A stretch of DNA of 64,000 bases from Verrucomicrobiota bacterium (GTDB lineage: Bacteria; Verrucomicrobiota; Verrucomicrobiia; Palsa-1439), in the NCBI GenBank assembly GCA_003152315.1, contig PLZV01000023.1:30640-94639 (forward strand). Direction: 5' to 3'. Numbering within the stretch: position 1 is the stretch's first letter; each line of letters starts with the position of its first letter. Shown piece by piece: positions 6,943 to 48,435 of this stretch. The notes below the pieces were generated by a model that was given only the letters and a program-made list of their open reading frames with translations, ran no database searches and was not told where the DNA came from. Made by a program: the position numbers and the translations under genes.

Positions 6943-8724
6943 ATGCTCTCGAAATACGACTATCTGGTCATCGGGTTTTATTTTGCGTTCATGGCGATGA
7001 TCGGTTGGGTTTGCCGCAAGTTCATCGGCAATACGAGCGACTATTTTCGGGGGGGCGGCAAGATGCTGTGGTGGATGACCGGTTGCTCGGCGTTCGTCGG
7101 GCAGTTCAGCGCGTGGACCTTCACCGGCGCGGCGGGCAAGGCTTATCAGGACGGGCCGGTCATCATGGTGCTGTATTTTGCCAACGCCCTCGGTTTTTTC
7201 TGCAACTTTGCTTTCTTTGCGCCGCGGTTCCGTCAGATGCGCGTGATCACATCCATCCAGGCCGTGAAAGCGCGATTTGGCAACGGCAGCGAGCAGTTCT
7301 TTACGTGGGTGCAACTGCCCGTCGGTGTGCTCTACGCCGCCATCTGGCTGAGCGGTTTGGCTGTTTTCATTTCAGCGGCGTTCAACATGGACCTTTACCT
7401 GACGGTCATTGTCACGGGTTCGGTGGTGTTGATCATGGCGGTCATCGGCGGATCCTGGGCGGTTGCCGCGGGCGATTTTATCCAGACGCTCGTGCTGATG
7501 CCCATCACTCTGGTCACGGCGTTTCTGGCCATCGCGCAAGTCGGCGGGTGGGGTAGTTTTCTGGACAAACTGCCGCACCACCATCTGCATTGGACCGAGG
7601 GCGCGCGACCGGAAATCCTCTACCTGTGGATCATCGCCATCATCATCAAACAATTCACCTCCACCAACAATATGCTGGAGGCTTCGCGCTATCTGAACGC
7701 CAAGGACGGCCGGGAGGCCCGGAAAGGCGCGCTCCTGGGCTCGATCCTGTTCGTCGTGGGGCCCATCTTCTGGTTCATTCCGCCGATGGCGGCGAGGATT
7801 GTGCATCCTGATCTCCACACGGTTTTTCCGCACCTGAAGAATCCCGCGGAAGGCGCATTCGTCGTGGCTGGGTTGGACAACATGCCGGCCGGCATGCTCG
7901 GCTTGCTGATCAGCGGCATCTTCGGCGCCACCATGTCCAACATGGACATCGGCTTGAACAAGAACGCCGGCTTCTTTGTGAAGAATTTCTACCAGGTCCT
8001 CATCCGCCCGCGCGCGCCCGAGAAAGAGATGTTGATCGTCAGCAAGCTCGTGACCTTCCTGCTGGGTATCCTGGTGATCTCTGCGGCGCTGACCTTCAGC
8101 TCCGGGAAGAAACCGCTGTTTGATCTGATGCTGCAATTTGGCGGCTTGATCGCCTTACCCTACTGCATCCCGCTGATCTGGGGCACGCTCATCAAACGCG
8201 CGCCAGCCTGGGCCGGTTGGACGACGGTGCTGGTCGGTTTCGCAATTTCCTGGGCGGGAAATGAATATCTCACCGCCGACTGGCTCCAGAAGTTCATGGG
8301 CTGGAATGTGCCGTTGAGCGCGCGCGAATCTTCCGACTGGGTGCTGCTGCTGGGCGTTCTGCTCAACACCATCGTTTGTTCGGCCTGGTTCCTTGGCTCC
8401 TGCCTTTTCGCGAACACCCGCTCCGCACCGGAAAAGGAACGCGTGGACAGATTCTTCACGCAGATGCAGACACCCATTGACTTCCATAAAGAGGAAGGCG
8501 TGGGCAACGATGCGCAGCAATATCGTACTCTCGGGTTGATGTGCCTGATCTATGGCGTATTCATTTCATTGCTGCTACTCATCCCGAACTCGCCGCTCGG
8601 CCGGCTCGGGATGTTCACCTGCGCCGGCACGATGCTCGGCGTCGGCGGCTTGCTCTACTGGAATTACACACTCCTTCGGGTAAAAACCTTGCCCGACGTC
8701 ACACGGAAACAACCAACTCAATAA
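6943..8724 (+). CDS. Sodium:solute symporter (SSS) family transporter
   Basis: Multi-TM protein starting MLSKYDYLVIGFYFAFMAMIGW; TSDYFRGGGKMLWWMTGCSAFVGQFSAWTFTGAAG; start moved from 6784 because this ATG follows the upstream stop. Confidence 0.85.
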   Translation: MLSKYDYLVIGFYFAFMAMIGWVCRKFIGNTSDYFRGGGKMLWWMTGCSAFVGQFSAWTFTGAAGKAYQDGPVIMVLYFANALGFFCNFAFFAPRFRQMRVITSIQAVKARFGNGSEQFFTWVQLPVGVLYAAIWLSGLAVFISAAFNMDLYLTVIVTGSVVLIMAVIGGSWAVAAGDFIQTLVLMPITLVTAFLAIAQVGGWGSFLDKLPHHHLHWTEGARPEILYLWIIAIIIKQFTSTNNMLEASRYLNAKDGREARKGALLGSILFVVGPIFWFIPPMAARIVHPDLHTVFPHLKNPAEGAFVVAGLDNMPAGMLGLLISGIFGATMSNMDIGLNKNAGFFVKNFYQVLIRPRAPEKEMLIVSKLVTFLLGILVISAALTFSSGKKPLFDLMLQFGGLIALPYCIPLIWGTLIKRAPAWAGWTTVLVGFAISWAGNEYLTADWLQKFMGWNVPLSARESSDWVLLLGVLLNTIVCSAWFLGSCLFANTRSAPEKERVDRFFTQMQTPIDFHKEEGVGNDAQQYRTLGLMCLIYGVFISLLLLIPNSPLGRLGMFTCAGTMLGVGGLLYWNYTLLRVKTLPDVTRKQPTQ

Positions 8725-37809: not shown

Positions 37810-38010
37810 GTGAAATTTGATGTGACAGTGGAAGCGGGTGGTGACGGTTTCGTGGCGCAGTGCGAAAGCATGGCTTGCAGCGCCCAGGGCCTCAGTCCTA
37901 CCAATGCGCTCGACTCCCTTCGCGATGAGATTCGTTATCGGCTTGAACTGTGTCCCTGCACTACCGTTAATGACGATTACGTTGAGTTGAATGTGGTGTC
38001 AGCGCTGTAA
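37810..38010 (+). CDS. HicB-like small protein at the end of the BMC operon
   Basis: MKFDVTVEAGGDGFVAQCESMACSAQGLSPTNALDSLRDEIRYRLELCPC: HicB/DUF1902-like pattern; a copy of its 3' third occurs at 44717-44797. Confidence 0.55.
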   Translation: MKFDVTVEAGGDGFVAQCESMACSAQGLSPTNALDSLRDEIRYRLELCPCTTVNDDYVELNVVSAL

Positions 38011-38060: not shown

Positions 38061-38942
38061 TCATAGCGGCGGTTGTGATGAAGTGACGCGCGCGTGTGGC
38101 CACAGCGCTTCGGCGCGATCTACTGGGGGATGAATGTCGATCAAGTGGACAGATTTGAGGTTGGGAGTAGAATCGCGGAGAAGATCGAGAACGGCTTGAT
38201 CATAAGGATTGAATGCGAAGCCAAAGACGACAAGCTCAATGGCGGGTCTAAGAATTCGCTCTGCCACTTCCCACGTGTGGCGCAGAGACTCCGAACAAAC
38301 CTTCTCTGGGGTTGGGGCAACGATAAGAGCGCGACCGGTCAAACCACGGCGTCCGTCGGTGTAGCACCCAGCGGTATCCCAAGAAATGCTGCCGTGGATC
38401 TTCGCCAGAGCGACTGATCCGGTAACCCTGACAGGGTTCTTCCAATGTGACATCGGATATGCACCTCTCCCGATCAACTGCTGATTTCGAAGCCCGTAAT
38501 TAAACCCATTCGTGCCGAGTGAATACTCGGGGAGCATGTCATAGTTCGGCGTAACTATGCCGCTCAGCGATGGATTGCAGAAGCTCTGCAGAAACTTTTG
38601 TGCGCGCACAACTCCAGCAATTTCGTATCGACGGTTTTCGTCGATCATCAAAACGTGCCTGCGCCAGCGTTGAGCGTGGAACTCCTTCCAGATGAAAGGA
38701 TCGGAGAGCCTTCGCGTTATGTACCACAGGACTAATTCTCTCTTCCTCGTCTCGAACGTAAGGGCGGCGGCGATGAATTGTTCTGAGCTGCCGCCGGGAT
38801 GCTCGTCATCCCATTGTTGTTTCAGTGCCCGCACCAGCATGAGCTTTTGCGCCTCACGCTCGCCCCAAGGTTCTATAGTGAAATCGAACAGTGCATTCGC
38901 CACCGGTAAGTCTGCCGCCCACTTCGAAAAGCCTGCCCCCAA
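38061..38942 (-). CDS. SIR2-like domain protein, start codon uncertain or 5'-truncated
   Basis: GAGFSKWA, IVTPNYDMLPEY, LAKIHGSISWD, VFGFAFNPYD; in-frame upstream codons read KTRKLSVVLFLGAGFS after a TAG with no ATG. Confidence 0.65.
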   Translation of the reverse strand: MGAGFSKWAADLPVANALFDFTIEPWGEREAQKLMLVRALKQQWDDEHPGGSSEQFIAAALTFETRKRELVLWYITRRLSDPFIWKEFHAQRWRRHVLMIDENRRYEIAGVVRAQKFLQSFCNPSLSGIVTPNYDMLPEYSLGTNGFNYGLRNQQLIGRGAYPMSHWKNPVRVTGSVALAKIHGSISWDTAGCYTDGRRGLTGRALIVAPTPEKVCSESLRHTWEVAERILRPAIELVVFGFAFNPYDQAVLDLLRDSTPNLKSVHLIDIHPPVDRAEALWPHARVTSSQPPL

Positions 38943-39052: not shown

Positions 39053-39227
39053 AACGCAAATTTAGCCCATCAGCAGTTCATGCCGTTGCCAAGCAACGAG
39101 GGCATTCGCGTCACCTGGCCAACGCCGAAGCATTTTCTTTTGGATGCGCCGGAGAAGTTTTACGCACGCACGCGGGTGAATGCGGATTACGGGAAGCCGG
39201 GGTGGACGCGGGATTGTGAGAAACGCT
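39053..39227 (+). pseudogene. 5' fragment of M23 peptidase interrupted by the IS66-family element
   Basis: NANLAHQQFMPLPSNEGIRVTWPTPKHFLLDAPEKFYARTRVNADYGKPGWTRDCEKR, close match to the intact M23 gene at 47803-48435. Confidence 0.85.
39220..39227. repeat. Target-site duplication, left copy (GAAACGCT)
   Basis: 8 bp immediately outside the left end; identical to 44662-44669. Confidence 0.85.
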
Positions 39228-39374
39228 GTATGCGGCTGAGCGGCTACGTCTAGTTTTCGGCACCGTGTTATGAAATCATGGCGGCATGAAATCTACAAAA
39301 GCTGGATCAGGTCGTCGGCGTTGGACAGTTAAACAACGCCAACGGTTGCTGGCGCGTTTCCACGCAATATCAAT

Positions 39375-39610
39375 TGACCCAACGGGATTTTGCTGATCGC
39401 CATGGCGTCGGGTTGTCAACATTGAGCAAATGGCTGCGAGTTGAAAGCGAATCAGCCTCGCCGTCCGTGAAGTTCCAGGAAGTGACGCTGCCCAATATGC
39501 CGCCGCGCTACCAGGTGGAGGTCGTCAGTCCGCAAGGTTGGACTGTCCGGTTACAAAACGGTTCCGATGTGCAGCAGTTGCCTGCACTGTTGCAGGCGTT
39601 GCCGTGTTAA
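39375..39610 (+). CDS. tnpA: IS66 TnpA-like helix-turn-helix protein (start uncertain, may begin near 39285)
   Basis: LTQRDFADRHGVGLSTLSKWLRVESE, followed immediately by tnpB. Confidence 0.75.
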
Positions 39611-39939
39611 GTGTTACCAGCGCAACCCGCGTGCTGGTGGCCACCACACCAGTGGATTTGCGCGGCAGTTTCAATCGGCTCTACGGTCTGGTCGTTGAAC
39701 AACTCAAGGGCGATCCACTGTCCGGGCATCTGTTTGTTTTCACTAACGGTCGTCGCAATCGTATCAAGGTTCTTTACTGGGACGGCGATGGCTTATGGGT
39801 TTGTGCGAAAAGATTGGAGAGCGGTCGGTTTACCTGGCCGGTGAACGAAAATGGGCAGGTCAGTTTGCGAGGCGAAGAGTTTAGCGCCCTGATTCATGGT
39901 CTGGAAGTGCGGTCGAAAAAGAACTGGTATCGGCGGTGA
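39605..39939 (+). CDS. tnpB: IS66 family accessory protein TnpB (start approximate)
   Basis: RVLVATTPVDLRGSFNRLYGLVVEQLKGDPLSGHLFVFTNGRRNRIKVLYWDGDGLWVCAKRLESGRFTWP. Confidence 0.9.
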
Positions 39940-40003
39940 AAAGATTGTTGTAAAATACTGTTCTGTTGATTGAACAAAATAGTTTGACCCACGTCAGATA
40001 AGT

Positions 40004-41548
40004 GTGACCGACGCCACGCTGCTCAAAAAGTTCGAGGAACTGAGCGCACGCGTGTCCGCATTGGAAACAGAGAACGCCCGCCTGCGGGAAGAGAACACCC
40101 AGGTGCGAACTGAGAACCGAATGCTTCGCCAAAAACTCGACCTGTATATCCGCCATTACTTCGGCGGCCAACGCAATGAGGGTTTGGATAAACACCAATT
40201 GGAACTACTGTTGCAAGGCTTGCCCAACGTCATCGCCTTGCCGACGCCGGAACCCAAGTCCGCTGCCGCTTCGCGTTCAGGCACGGCTCATCCTGTGCGC
40301 CGGATGCTGGCTGAAGATAAGCTGGAGACGCATGAGATCGTGATCGAACCGGAAGAAGTCAAAGCTCAGCCTGACGGTTGGAAAAAGGTTAGCGAAGAAC
40401 GCACCAACCAACTGGACTGGGTCGCGCCCAAAATCATCAAACGAGTTTTTATTCGCCCGCGCTATGTGAAGGCCGAACGCTTTGCCCTGGCACCGCTGCC
40501 GCCACAACCGATTGAGCAGGGCATGGTGGGACCGGGCTTGTTGGCTCAGGTCATACTCAATAAATTTGAATATCATCTGCCACTCTTCCGGCAGGAAAAG
40601 ATGTTCCGTCAGCAATTCGGGGTGGAGTTGAGTCGCAAAACGATGGATTGCTGGGTGGAACAAGGCGCAGAGATGTTGAAACCGGTGGATCGGTCGATCC
40701 GCGAGGATTTGCTGGCGGGCAATTACCTGCAAGCCGACGAGACGCCCATCCGGTATTTGGACCCGGATGTAAAAGGCAAAAGCCAGCAGGGTTATCTTTG
40801 GGTTTACAGTCGGCCCAAAGGCGATGTGTTGTTTGAATGGCAGGTGAGCCGGTCGCGGGAAGGACCGGAAAAATTTCTCAAAACGTTTCGCGGCAAGCTG
40901 CAAACCGACGGCTACTACGCGCATGAGTCGCTGGCCAAGGAACGCAAAGGCGAACTGACGCTGGCCGCTTGCTGGGCGCATTGCAGGAGGGGCTTCCATG
41001 AAGCGTTGGCGGAGAGCAAACTGGCCGCATGGCTTGTTCGGCAGATTGGGCACCTTTACGCAGTGAAAAAAGAGTTGCGCCAGAAAAAGGCCGGGCCGCA
41101 GCTACGCGCCGCAATGCGCGTCTGGCAAAGCCGCCCCGTCCTCGCCCGCTTGCGCCGGGGAATGGAACTGGTGCGGCAACGGACTTTGCCGCAAGGATTA
41201 CTCGGTCAGGCCATTGACTACGCCTTGAAACGGTGGGAAGCCCTGACCCGGTTCGTGGAGGACGGCGTTCTGGAAATTGACACAAATCTCATCGAGAACT
41301 CCATTCGGCCGAGTGCTCTTGGAAAGAAGAACTGGTTGTTCATTGGGCATCCTGAAGCCGGCGAACGCAGCGCGGTGATTTACACACTGCCGGGCAGTTG
41401 TCGGCGGCAGGGGATCAATCCATTCGAGTATCTGAAGGATTTGTTCACCCGCTTGCCCGCGGCCAAGATCACCCAGATCAAGGACTTCACGCCAGCGGCG
41501 TGGGTCAGGGCAAAAGCAAGGGAGAAACTGCTTGCTCAGGCAGCTTGA
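40004..41548 (+). CDS. tnpC: IS66 family transposase TnpC
   Basis: YIRHYFGGQRNEGLDKHQLELLL, IIKRVFIRPRYV, LQADETPIRYLDPDVKGKSQQGYLWVY, IDTNLIENSIRPSALGKKNWLFIGHPEAGERSAVIYTL. Confidence 0.95.
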   Translation: MTDATLLKKFEELSARVSALETENARLREENTQVRTENRMLRQKLDLYIRHYFGGQRNEGLDKHQLELLLQGLPNVIALPTPEPKSAAASRSGTAHPVRRMLAEDKLETHEIVIEPEEVKAQPDGWKKVSEERTNQLDWVAPKIIKRVFIRPRYVKAERFALAPLPPQPIEQGMVGPGLLAQVILNKFEYHLPLFRQEKMFRQQFGVELSRKTMDCWVEQGAEMLKPVDRSIREDLLAGNYLQADETPIRYLDPDVKGKSQQGYLWVYSRPKGDVLFEWQVSRSREGPEKFLKTFRGKLQTDGYYAHESLAKERKGELTLAACWAHCRRGFHEALAESKLAAWLVRQIGHLYAVKKELRQKKAGPQLRAAMRVWQSRPVLARLRRGMELVRQRTLPQGLLGQAIDYALKRWEALTRFVEDGVLEIDTNLIENSIRPSALGKKNWLFIGHPEAGERSAVIYTLPGSCRRQGINPFEYLKDLFTRLPAAKITQIKDFTPAAWVRAKAREKLLAQAA

Positions 41549-41609
41549 GCAGCTTGGCAGCCGCTCAAACTTAATGTCTTATTTGCAACTTCTGGGCCGG
41601 ACCGGTATC

Positions 41610-41631
41610 CGTGTTCCTCCCAGCCGGATAC
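41610..41631 (-). repeat. Internal IS66-type right-end inverted repeat
   Basis: Reverse complement GTATCCGGCTGGGAGGAACACG resembles left end GTATGCGGCTGAGCGGCTACG. Confidence 0.7.
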
Positions 41632-41698
41632 GAAAGTAATTGAGTAGCGCTTAAGTTCCGCCGGATTTCAGACGATAAGAGACAAGGACGATTAGGTC

Positions 41699-41863
41699 GA
41701 GCGCCCGAGCACCATCACCCGCTGCCTCAACCTCATGGTCATCTCCAAAAGCCTTGAACGCGTCGCCGATCACGCCGCCAACGTGGCCGAGGAAGTCGTC
41801 TATCTTTACGAAGCCCGTGACATTCGCCACAGCGGCCAGTCTGCTCCCAACGCCGTCGCCTGA
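41699..41863 (+). pseudogene. 3' fragment of a phoU-like gene
   Basis: ERPSTITRCLNLMVISKSLERVADHAANVAEEVVYLYEARDIRHSGQSAPNAVA-stop, typical PhoU C-terminus. Confidence 0.75.
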
Positions 41864-42099
41864 CCCAGCCCGGCGAATTCCCTACCGTCCGCAGCCCTGA
41901 TAAGACTGTCCAATTTCCGGCAGGAGGATTCTCCATCCTTCCTTGCGGTGCCGCCATCTGTAGGACAAAGGATGACATTACCATTGCAGTTTCATTCCCT
42001 TGGGCCTCCTGACCCCGCCTGGAATGGGACAATACCGTCAATAACCCCGGCAGTCTCGCAAGGGCATGGATTTTGCTCATTCCCGTGGAATGACACACT

Positions 42100-42273
42100 A
42101 TGAGGCATAACAGGTTGTGGCGGCTCAAGCTGCTCGCCGGTTGCGGAATCCTTCTGCTGCCGTCCAGTCTGCTGGCCCTCGATCCCGCAAAGTCCGTGTT
42201 CCAGTTCAACTGTCAGAGCTGGATTCCGCACGCGCCTCATGTTCGCAGTTGGAAATGGAATTCTTGTTTCTGA
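42100..42273 (+). pseudogene. 5' remnant of a beta-propeller (Reg_prop-type) sensor kinase gene
   Basis: MRHNRLWRLKLLAGCGILLLPSSLLALDPAKSVFQFNCQSW then divergent sequence and stop; signal peptide plus first strand of this sensor type. Confidence 0.5.
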
Positions 42274-44539
42274 ACGTGTCGGGAATCTGGTAGCGAAAGC
42301 AACTACCCGGGATAATTTTATGCAAGTTGAGCAACAATTAAGAGACTCAATCAAGGAAATTGACGACCAGAAGGCCGCCCTGGACGAGTACGCCATCGTG
42401 GCCATCACCGAATTGGAGTTGCGAGTTCAGCAACGGACTGCGGAATTGACCAAAGCCAACGATAACTTGCGCATGGAAATCGCCGAGCGAAACAAAGCGG
42501 AGGCGGCCGTTGGCCAGTCGGAAACGCGGTATCGCACCCTGTTTGACACGCTGATTGAAGGGTTTTGCACAATTGAAATGATTTTTGACGCCGCTGGCAA
42601 ACCGGTGGATTACCGCTTTCTGGAAATCAATCCGGCATTTGAAAAGCAAACCGGTTTGCACAACGCGCAAGGAAAATTAATGCGCGACCTTGTTCCGAAC
42701 CATGAGGCGCACTGGTTCGAAATTTACGGAAAAATTGCACTGACAGGCGAATCGGCGCACTTTGAGAACGAAGCAAACTTGCTGGGTCGTCACTACGATG
42801 TGTGTGCCTACCGGGTCGGCGGGTCGGAAAGCCGAAAAGTCGGCATCCTGTTCAACGACATCACCGAGCGCAAACGGGCGGATCGCCGGTTGCTCACGCA
42901 AAGCGTCATTAGTCGGGTGCTGGCGGAATCAAACACCTTGAATGAAGCAACACCCAAAATCATACAGGCTATCTGCGAATCTGAAGGATGGGATTTTGGG
43001 ACAATCTGGGAAGTGGATAAAAAATCCAATGTGCTGCGCTTTCTGAAAACATGGCACCGACCGGAACTTCCCGCAGAAGAATTGGCGGCCAAGACCCGCG
43101 AGATGACTTTTGCATTGAATATGGGCTTGCCAGGGCGCGTATGGGCGTCCGGTAAACCGTTGTTAATCTCGGATATCGCCGGTGATAACAATTATCCGCG
43201 CGCACCATTTGCCACGAAGATCGGGTTGCACAGTGCGCTGGCATTTCCAATTATTCTGGAAGGCGATGTCATTGGCGTGATAGATTTTTTTGGACGGGAA
43301 ATACGTGCGACGGATGAAAAAATGCTGGAAATGTTTTTCGGCCTTGGACGGCAAATCGGGTCGTTCTTCCAACGCAAAAAACTAGAAGAACAACTTCGCC
43401 AATCCCAAAAAATGGAGGGAATTGGCCAATTGGCTGGCGGCGTAGCGCACGATTTCAATAACATACTGACTGTCATTCAAATGCAATCTGATTTGCTGAA
43501 AAACAGCAGTGGTCTTTCTGCCGATCAGTCGGAGTTTGCGGATGAAATTGGCGTCACTGTTCAACGGGCCGCCGCCCTGACCCGCCAATTGCTTTTGTTC
43601 AGCCGCCGCGAAGTGTTCCAGCCGCGCGATCTGGACTTGAGTGAATCCATCACTAACACGGTAAAAATGCTAAATCGCATCCTTGGCGACACTGTCCAGA
43701 TGCAACTCAAATTGGCGCCGCAACCGATGTTCATTCACGCCGATGCGGGCATGATGGATCAAGTCTTGTTGAATCTCACGGTGAACGCCCGCGACGCCAT
43801 GCCCAATGGTGGCCAGCTTGTCATCGAAACTTCCGACGTGGAATTCGACGAATTTGCTGCCGCCCAATCAGCCCAAACGCGTCCCGGTTTGTTTGTATGC
43901 TTAAGTGTGAGCGACAGTGGCTGCGGCATTCCAGCGGAAATACTTCCGAAGATTTTTGAGCCGTTTTTCACCACCAAAGAAGTCGGCAAAGGCACCGGCC
44001 TTGGACTGGCGACAGTCTTTGGCATCGCGCAACAACATCAAGGTTGGGTTAGCGTCTATAGTGAAGTCGGTCACGGGACAACGTTCAGAATTTATTTCCC
44101 ACGACTGGCTAAAAGCCCAGTACTAAAAGCCTCACAACCGGCTCTGACGGTCACGGGCCGCGGCGATGAGACGATTTTGCTGGTGGAAGACGATCCCTCA
44201 CTGCGCATGTCCGTGCGGAGAATCCTCTCACAACTGGGCTACCGCATTCTCGAAGCGACCACCGGGGTCAAAGCATTGGAAGTCTGGAGACAAAACCGCG
44301 ATGACGTTCGTTTGTTGCTGACCGATTTGGTGATGCCGGACGGAATGACCGGAAAAGATTTGGCCCAACGTGTTCTTCAGGAAGATCCCAAATTGAAAGT
44401 GATCTACATGAGTGGTTACAGCGCCGAGGTTGTCGGGAAGGATTTTCCGTTGAAAGAAGGCGACAACTTTGTTACCAAACCATTCCAATCCTCCAAACTG
44501 GTGCAAACCGTCCGAGAAATGTTGGATGCTAAAAACTAG
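42239..44539 (+). CDS. Hybrid sensor histidine kinase (PAS-GAF-HisKA-HATPase-REC), transposon passenger; start uncertain
   Basis: [15 protein letters not shown]-box, [15 protein letters not shown]-box, [12 protein letters not shown]-box, receiver [11 protein letters not shown]...[14 protein letters not shown]...TKPF. Confidence 0.92.
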
Positions 44540-44661
44540 TCATCGATTTTCCCGTCAGCCTTGCCAGAACCAAGGATTTCGCACTTCTTGATGCGAGCGT
44601 CGAAACAATGTGTCCAACTGGCAAAGCAAGTCCACCTCAATGTGCTCCATCAGACGGATAC

Positions 44662-44669
44662 GAAACGCT
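44662..44669. repeat. Target-site duplication, right copy (GAAACGCT)
   Basis: Identical to 39220-39227. Confidence 0.85.
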
Positions 44670-44797
44670 TTCACCCGGGGGTGTGACATTGCGCCGGTTA
44701 AGGTCACCGTCACAAAATTCGTTATCGGCTTGAACTCTGTCCCTGCACCACCATTAATGACGATTACGTTGAACTCAATGTCGTCTCAGCGCTCTGA
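44670..44797 (+). pseudogene. Chimeric remnant: M23 peptidase middle segment joined to 3' end of HicB-like gene
   Basis: TRGCDIAPVKVTVT (M23, cf. HRGCDIAPVKVTAT in intact copy) followed by IRYRLELCPCTTINDDYVELNVVSAL-stop (cf. 37930-38010). Confidence 0.8.
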
Positions 44798-46310: not shown

Positions 46311-47822
46311 GTGAAGCCAGCGCCAGACTACCAGCGGGCGGAGGAGCTGCCAAGTAATGAAGCAGCAAGTGCCGGTGGGCGTATTCCACGTCATGTCCTG
46401 ACGGCGGCGTTTATTCTCGGATTGCTTACGGTGGCGCTTTTTGCGCGGACGTGGAACTTCCAGATGCTCTACTGGGATGACGACGAGAATGTGTTGCGGA
46501 ACCCGCTCGTCGTGATGCCTGTCGCGGCGGGGCTGAAGCAGATCTTCACCGCGCCATTCTCCACGGATTACTACCCGCTCACCTACATCAGTCTTGCGCT
46601 CGATCATTGGGTGTGGCGCGGGCACTTTTTTGGTTATCACGTGACGCAAACCTTGTTGCACGGTTTGAATGCGTTTCTGGTCGTTTTGTTGGTGTGGCGT
46701 TGGACGAAAACGTCGATTGTCGCCCTGCTGGCGGGCGCGTGGTTCGCGTGGCATCCAGTGCAGGTGGAGACTGTGGCGTGGATCGCCGAACGGAAGAACG
46801 TCTTGGGCGCTTGTTTGTTTTTGTTGGCGTGGCTGGCGTATTTGCGGATTGAGGACGGGAAATCGTCGACCGTCCGCTGGCGTTTCACTGCGCTAGGACT
46901 GTTTATTCTGGCAATACTGGCGCATGCGCTCGTGATTGTTTTGCCGGCGTTGCTCCTGACTTATGAGATTTGCGCGAGACGGCAGAAAATCTCCGAAGGT
47001 TTGCGGCGCACCTGGCTGTTTTTTATTCCCGCCGCTTTTGCGGCGCTGATGCGCGTACTCGGCCACGCGCAGTCGGGTCAACTGTCGAGTCCGTTTCGGA
47101 ATGCAACCGAGTGGTTTTTGACGATGACCACGGTCCTTGGCCAATACGTCACCACGCTCTTCTGGCCCACGGAGTTGAGCAACCACTACCAGGTGACGGC
47201 GAACGATTCGTTGGGTAGTCCCGGGGTCATTGTCACGCTGGGTTGGCTGGCGGTGTGGGTGGTGGTGGCCTGGCGCGTGAAACCCTTGCGCCGCTGGTCG
47301 ATTTTTGCGCTCGTGTGGTTCCTGATTTGCCTCGCGCCCGTGTTGGAGATTGTGCCGCATCCGACGTTGCGCGCGGACCGGTACCTGTACCTCGCGGCGC
47401 TCGGGATTTTTCTGTTGGTCGCGCAATGGTTGGAGGAGAAACGCGTGATCCTCATCATCGCCGGTCCGCTGACGGGTGTTTGCCTGATCGGGTTGACCCT
47501 CGCGCGCATCCCGGACTGGCATGACCCGAAAACTTTATGGAGCGATTGTGTCAGGAAGAATCCGCGGTCGGCTGTTGGCTATTACAGCCTCGCGGGATGT
47601 TCCATCAACGAGAGCGAGTGGCCAACGGCGGCGCGTTACCTGGAAAAGACCATCGCGCTGAAGCCGGACTTTGCCGAGGCGCACGAGCGTCTCGGCGCGG
47701 TGTATCTGATGCAGAACAAGGAGGCCGAGGGGCGGCAAGAACTACAGCGAGCCCTCGCTTTGAAACCCCAACTCACCGAAGCCAGCCACAATCTGATGCT
47801 GCTTGAACAACGCCACCCATAA
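46311..47822 (+). CDS. Polytopic membrane protein with C-terminal TPR repeats (glycosyltransferase 39/DUF1736-like), GTG start proposed
   Basis: YWDDDENVLRNPLV...YYPLTYISLALDHWVWRGHFFGYHVTQTLLHGLNA...RADRYLYLAALG; TPR AARYLEKTIALKPDFAEAHERLGAVYL. Confidence 0.8.
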   Translation: MKPAPDYQRAEELPSNEAASAGGRIPRHVLTAAFILGLLTVALFARTWNFQMLYWDDDENVLRNPLVVMPVAAGLKQIFTAPFSTDYYPLTYISLALDHWVWRGHFFGYHVTQTLLHGLNAFLVVLLVWRWTKTSIVALLAGAWFAWHPVQVETVAWIAERKNVLGACLFLLAWLAYLRIEDGKSSTVRWRFTALGLFILAILAHALVIVLPALLLTYEICARRQKISEGLRRTWLFFIPAAFAALMRVLGHAQSGQLSSPFRNATEWFLTMTTVLGQYVTTLFWPTELSNHYQVTANDSLGSPGVIVTLGWLAVWVVVAWRVKPLRRWSIFALVWFLICLAPVLEIVPHPTLRADRYLYLAALGIFLLVAQWLEEKRVILIIAGPLTGVCLIGLTLARIPDWHDPKTLWSDCVRKNPRSAVGYYSLAGCSINESEWPTAARYLEKTIALKPDFAEAHERLGAVYLMQNKEAEGRQELQRALALKPQLTEASHNLMLLEQRHP

Positions 47823-48435
47823 CCAGTTTCTCCCTCTACCGAGCGACGCAGCCCTGCAAATCGGGTGGCCGACGCTGAATCATTTTCTCCTGGATGCGCC
47901 GGAGAAGTTTTTTGCGAGGACGCGCGTGAATGCTGATTACGGCAAGCCGGGTTGGACACGTGATTGCGGAAAACGCTTCCACCGCGGCTGTGATATCGCA
48001 CCGGTCAAGGTCACGGCGACAGGCCGGACGACCCGCGTCATTTTCACGAACTGCGCCACGAATAACGACTTTGAAAGCGAAGAACCCACGTTCGTGCCGC
48101 ACGATGACGTATTTTGCGTGTTCGATGGACGGGTCGTGGAAGTTGTGGACAACGAGAACGCTTCGGACTTCGGCAGGCACGTCGTCATCGAACACTCATG
48201 GCCTCGTGGCGGAGGGAAGTTTTTTACGCTCTATGCCCACCTCTCGGAGATCAGCGTTACCGGTTCATCAGTGATGAGCGGGCAACGAATTGGAAAGATG
48301 GGTCAAACTTCGCGGAGTGCGGATGCTCGTAACTGGATGGCGATTGCGCCGCATTTGCATTTTGAGGTGCGGGATGCGGAGGGGCGGGCGTATGAGCCGG
48401 TGGAGTTTTTGCGGAGGTATGTTTCGCTTCGGTAA
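47803..48435 (+). CDS. M23 family metallopeptidase (intact copy)
   Basis: FHRGCDIAP (HxxxD), VFDGRVVEVVDN, HVVIEHSW, YAHLSEI, PHLHFEVRD. Confidence 0.85.
   Translation: MNNATHNQFLPLPSDAALQIGWPTLNHFLLDAPEKFFARTRVNADYGKPGWTRDCGKRFHRGCDIAPVKVTATGRTTRVIFTNCATNNDFESEEPTFVPHDDVFCVFDGRVVEVVDNENASDFGRHVVIEHSWPRGGGKFFTLYAHLSEISVTGSSVMSGQRIGKMGQTSRSADARNWMAIAPHLHFEVRDAEGRAYEPVEFLRRYVSLR

Follow-up and report, generated by a model that had tools for sequence, protein, structure and literature searches.

A passenger-carrying IS66-family element with a hybrid histidine kinase, and related elements with differing cargo, in Verrucomicrobiota

Passenger-carrying IS66 elements and the present locus

Elements of the IS66 family that carry passenger genes downstream of tnpC are designated tIS66 and represent 7 of the 25 Pseudomonas IS66 elements in ISfinder; one of them, ISPa75, spans 2996 bp and carries fosZ, coding for a resistance enzyme (PMC12888890). 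The element described here lies in a window of 64,000 nt (the whole stretch of DNA that was analyzed) from a Verrucomicrobiota bacterium. It resembles ISPa75 and other tIS66 in that tnpA, tnpB and tnpC are followed by a passenger inside the terminal repeats, in the presence of target duplications, and in having a right end that is related, but not identical, to the left one. It differs from ISPa75 in its 3.1 kb cargo with a hybrid kinase and in having the probable relic of a right end after tnpC, ahead of the cargo. With classic IS66 elements it shares the TnpB and TnpC families, terminal repeats starting with GTA and an 8-bp duplication, although in those elements the right end is normally situated 37–231 bp after tnpC, compared to 3113 bp in the window.

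The original prediction considered that a kinase would be an unusual passenger for IS66. This needs qualification, because passengers are known as a class, as illustrated by tIS66 and by fosZ in ISPa75 (PMC12888890), but a kinase cargo appears to be new. Neither a hybrid kinase nor a DGR, the cargo of two relatives described below, was reported as IS66 cargo in the literature searched, with most subscription papers outside that search; within these bounds, both cargos appear to be new. The present element thus widens the range of IS66 passengers, from genes of resistance type in Pseudomonas to those for signalling in Verrucomicrobiota.

Boundaries, terminal repeats and target duplication

The unit at 39228–44661 (5434 bp) is flanked on both sides by a perfect 8-bp duplication, GAAACGCT, located as predicted at 39220–39227, in register with an M23 paralogue, and at 44662–44669; it adjoins GTATGCGGCTGAGC... 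on the left side and ...CAGACGGATAC on the right side. As a mere word, GAAACGCT is no proof of transposition, because it occurs six times in the window versus 3.1 expected; the duplication counts because it exactly abuts the two top-scoring terminal repeats of the insertion sequence lineage. These were identified using a 27-bp position weight matrix built from the repeats of seven relatives, with the window excluded. Of the ca. 128,000 window positions scanned, the best was the left repeat, IRL (GTATGCGGCTGAGCGGCTACGTCTAGT, 39228–39254, plus strand; 35.1 bits), followed by the right repeat, IRR (GTATCCGTCTGATGGAGCACATTGAGG, 44635–44661, minus strand; 20.1 bits), and the third scored 11.5 bits. 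The terminal sequences that had been proposed for the outer ends are therefore the two best in the whole 64 kb. The probability of an exact 8-bp match at two terminal repeats is ca. 1.5e-5, and a chance duplication was rejected because the copies of GAAACGCT exactly abut the two best sites. The terminal inverted repeats of the unit are related to each other and start with GTA, a trait of the IS66 family; the 8-bp target duplication is another such trait, and two relatives of the element (L051 and L053) have their own, different ones.

The interrupted M23 copy

When the flanks were rejoined with a single copy of the 8-bp sequence, they aligned without gaps across the junction with the intact M23 gene at 47816–48014. 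The interrupted gene can therefore be rejoined against its 47.8-kb paralogue, as had been anticipated, but it was already a partial duplicate, and a 1-bp frameshift (one extra base) occurs a few positions to the right of the rejoined junction. Homology to M23 restarts only at 44670, to the right of the unit, and stops ca. 45 bp to the right of the insertion, where it meets the duplicated 3′ end of a hicB-like gene (a 77-bp duplicate, with 44717–44793 corresponding to 37930–38006 at 90% identity). The insertion therefore struck a gene duplicate that was broken beforehand, and the IS66 event was preceded at this locus by another, older one, either a duplication or an insertion. The M23 sequences concerned are 39066–39227 together with 44670–44714, and 47816–48014; along with those of the hicB-like 3′ end, they bracket a region containing the transposon and a SIR2-like ORF (38061–38942, minus strand), which was assigned by eye. 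An empty site for the interrupted copy, proposed as a check, was not found in two genomes of the same genus, G001 and G002. There, the M23 gene occurs solely in its full form, together with the hicB-like gene, and the partial copy that the element interrupts is restricted to the genome of the window.

Transposase genes

Gene tnpB (39538–39939, plus strand) matches Pfam TnpB_IS66 (PF05717, E 9e-34); its annotated start is that of the longest ORF, and the true one is probably more internal. Gene tnpC (40004–41548, plus strand) is open and codes for an IS66 DDE transposase of 514 aa, matching Pfam DDE_Tnp_IS66 (PF03050, 2–283/284, E 3e-83) and, with 362.6 bits for a cut-off of 180, the NCBIfam model transpos_IS66 (NF033517); the D, D and E motifs were all found. 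Upstream of tnpB there is coding sequence for TnpA (39286–39609, plus strand), whose comparison with that of the related element L050 revealed IS66 TnpA halves in two frames, split by a frameshift near 39364–39370. The frameshift may reflect genuine decay or an error of the assembly and, because tnpA is frameshifted, the copy in the window may not move by itself. The TnpB and TnpC models, the two outer terminal repeats, the exact 8-bp duplication and the existence of relatives built alike support that this is, as was originally predicted, an element of the IS66 family with a hybrid kinase as passenger.

Cargo of the element

The stretch from tnpC to the right end spans 3113 bp, in good agreement with the predicted unit of about 5.4 kb including 3 kb past tnpC. 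It contains a 3′ fragment of phoU (41695–41864, plus strand), with 86–89% DNA identity to the native phoU of genome G053, and what, read from its translation, would be the broken start of another gene, resembling those of periplasmic sensor proteins (42079–42220, plus strand). These are followed by the passenger gene (42239–44539, plus strand), coding for a cytosolic hybrid histidine kinase of 766 aa with Pfam domains PAS_8, GAF_2, HisKA, HATPase_c and Response_reg. The kinase is full-length, as claimed, with an intact open reading frame in the order PAS-GAF-HisKA-HATPase-REC and every catalytic motif kept. It shows 78% DNA identity to its best match from HisKA to the receiver, with 67, 34 and 149 differences at codon positions 1, 2 and 3, respectively, and this third-position excess indicates that the kinase was under selection as a protein before its capture. 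From its domains, it presumably signals via response regulators of the host. A search for DGR-like repeats in this cargo identified none.

A non-transposition gene, that of the kinase, is thus found between tnpC and IRR and within one target duplication, and for this reason we place the element among tIS66. Very probably, 39228–44661 is a single passenger-carrying IS66 transposon with the hybrid kinase inside. Its insertion would have involved a parent element whose TnpA, TnpB and TnpC acted on the outer IRL (39228) and the outer IRR (44661), by which the 5434-bp unit, including the kinase, would have inserted into the partial M23 duplicate and generated the 8-bp duplication.

A probable older right end behind tnpC

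Situated 83 bp after tnpC there is another IRR-like sequence (41605–41631, minus strand), of which the first 13 bp fit the lineage profile, with a total of −8.8 bits. A simple IS66 would stop here, and homologous sequences exist at the same place after tnpC in L171, L047 and L136, so that the locus might be read as two independent events, with a simple IS66 (39228–41631) lying beside a kinase region either present beforehand or acquired separately. We consider this highly improbable, because the eight bases after 41631, GAAAGTAA, differ from GAAACGCT in 4 of 8 positions, whereas the two sides of the complete unit match; because M23 homology restarts only at 44670, so that the junction alignment contradicts two events; and because this proximal end scores far below the 20.1 bits of the distal one, the two outer sites being the best of the window. 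Among the findings that, by the original prediction, would speak against a single unit was a separate duplication for tnpABC with its end at 41631, and this was not observed. The alternatives of two separate insertions and of an ordinary IS66 adjacent to a chromosomal kinase were consequently rejected, since the duplication bounds the whole unit and there is none at 41631. The element is thus retained as a single unit, and the IRR-like site at 41631 is probably the relic of an older right end.

Among the sequences with a homologous site, L136 (contig C41 of G001) is a remnant of the 3′ end of a related IS66. It has two IRR-like ends, one proximal and the other ca. 820 bp beyond it, and an ORF for a response regulator on the opposite strand; it is possibly another, decayed cargo carrier.

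A clade of IS66 elements with differing cargo

The nearest TnpC sequences, 66–83% identical, are from Limisphaerales and other Verrucomicrobiota MAGs. In a TnpC phylogeny, the window element, L050, L051, L052 and L053, plus L047 and L048, formed one clade (SH-aLRT 100), and every simple element fell outside it. The right end is undefined in L047 and L048; the members with a defined right end (the window element and L050–L053) all carry 1.4–3.1 kb after tnpC (5/5). Of these, L051 (tnpABC plus cargo, 3667 bp) is bounded by the exact duplication GAATGATC and has its right end 1390 bp after tnpC, and L053 (tnpABC plus cargo, 4086 bp) by the exact duplication GGTCCAAT, with the right end 1823 bp after tnpC. 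As a control, we examined other IS66 elements with exact duplications, and in all 20 of 20 the right end is situated 37–231 bp after tnpC; among duplication-bounded elements, longer distances were found only in L051, L053 and the window. Lineage-type ends are also present 1.2–2.1 kb past tnpC in L168, L171 and L145, whose left parts are incomplete.

The cargo genes are diverse: a secreted protein with DUF11 repeats in L051, a choice-of-anchor Q protein in L053, an alpha/beta hydrolase in L168, and GloVer-repeat proteins, on opposite strands, in L171 and L145. The distal ends of seven elements score 13.6–35 bits with the lineage profile, and their common homology extends over ca. 26 bp only, the DNA inside being unrelated. 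There is therefore in Verrucomicrobiota a clade of IS66 elements in which the stretch from tnpC to a short right repeat (ca. 26 bp) holds cargo that differs among members, with cargo in every member whose right end is defined. None of the relatives examined represents a simple form of the lineage in which a duplication adjoins the proximal IRR. L047:9498–9675 and L171:1173–1445 are 85% identical over DNA that crosses the relic of the proximal IRR and reaches the beginning of the cargo gene, so that both derive from a common cargo-bearing ancestor; L047 is cut off after this stretch.

Sister elements carrying a DGR

Two members of the clade, L050 (7216–12642) and L052 (322–5713), are IS66-family elements with a complete DGR, and a third element, L049, starts at 7216 and is cut by the contig end. 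In the three of them the cargo comprises an FGE-sulfatase-type variable protein, bAvd and a reverse transcriptase. Mismatches between the template and variable repeats (TR and VR, 128 bp) occur exclusively at template adenines (18/18 and 24/24); moreover, when L050 is compared with L052, one site differs between the templates and 26 between the variable repeats, all of them template adenines. The identification of the cargo of L050 and L052 as a DGR is hence convincing. It is like known DGRs with bAvd and an FGE-sulfatase-type variable protein in having the variable protein, Avd, RT, TR, VR and adenine-specific changes, and differs from chromosomal DGRs in being situated inside IS66 ends.

L050 and L052 are 88–91% alike from end to end, with ca. 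3.1 kb of cargo, and have different flanks outside both ends. Their ends are defined, but a matching target duplication is absent at both loci, and a search for a site collinear with the flanks of L050 in its own genus placed the two flanks at different locations. Related chromosomal DGRs (L218–L222) have neither IS66 genes nor IS66 ends in the stretches examined, and the transposon therefore probably acquired its DGR from a chromosome. If confirmed, L050 and L052 would show an insertion sequence moving a targeted-hypermutation system between genomes.

Proposed capture of the cargo

The conservation of a former right end as a relic makes the route of cargo capture amenable to testing. A simple element would have existed first, with cargo added later: the transposase would skip the original IRR behind tnpC and pair IRL with a matching end further downstream, by which the DNA between the bypassed IRR and the downstream end would become part of the element. 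Such a bypass is consistent with the relic IRR at 41631 and with the phoU fragment behind it. A comparable process is the capture of ISEcp1 type, in which alternative right ends are used, so that transposition passes over the original one and mobilizes the DNA downstream of it; ISEcp1 differs from the window element in belonging to another transposase family, and the outer ends in the window match well the lineage's own repeats.

It is improbable that the distal end was, as in that process, a chance host sequence resembling an IRR. The cargo does open with broken host genes (the phoU 3′ end) directly behind the relic IRR, as would be expected from such a surrogate end, but the distal ends of the seven elements beat chance by far, and the good profile score of the distal end argues against a purely chance origin. 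That same score (20 bits, a value equalled by ca. 40 positions in 2.8 million, mostly known ends) would suit a composite transposon, in which the cargo was once enclosed by a pair of IS66 copies, with only the outer end of the second one left. We regard this as unlikely, if slightly less so than a surrogate end, because none of the seven elements contains any IS66 remnant inside the distal end beyond the last 26 bp (0/7). A composite may also have been the route by which the distal end arrived, in which case it is a version of capture by bypass of the original IRR. We lean toward considering the clade a general cargo vehicle that repeatedly swaps what lies between tnpC and a short right end, and that has thereby mobilized entire modules for regulation and diversification, namely the hybrid kinase of the window and the working DGR of L050 and L052.

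Distribution of the kinase unit

The kinase unit is single-copy in its own genome and only one insertion is known. The whole unit was not found elsewhere in that genome or in 141 relatives, nor in 384 genomes of the class or 320 of a sister order, which were searched with its insertion sequence part; a search of IMG/VR retrieved one short fragment and nothing more. The copies of the whole unit at other loci, with different duplications, that the original prediction proposed to seek were consequently not recovered as such, but relatives of the same architecture do exist with their own, different 8-bp duplications. Additionally, left-end remnants of the lineage of ca. 150 bp, with the rest of the element absent, occur in the window's own genome (contig C11; L134, near 5015) and in G002 (contig C34; L137, near 4975).
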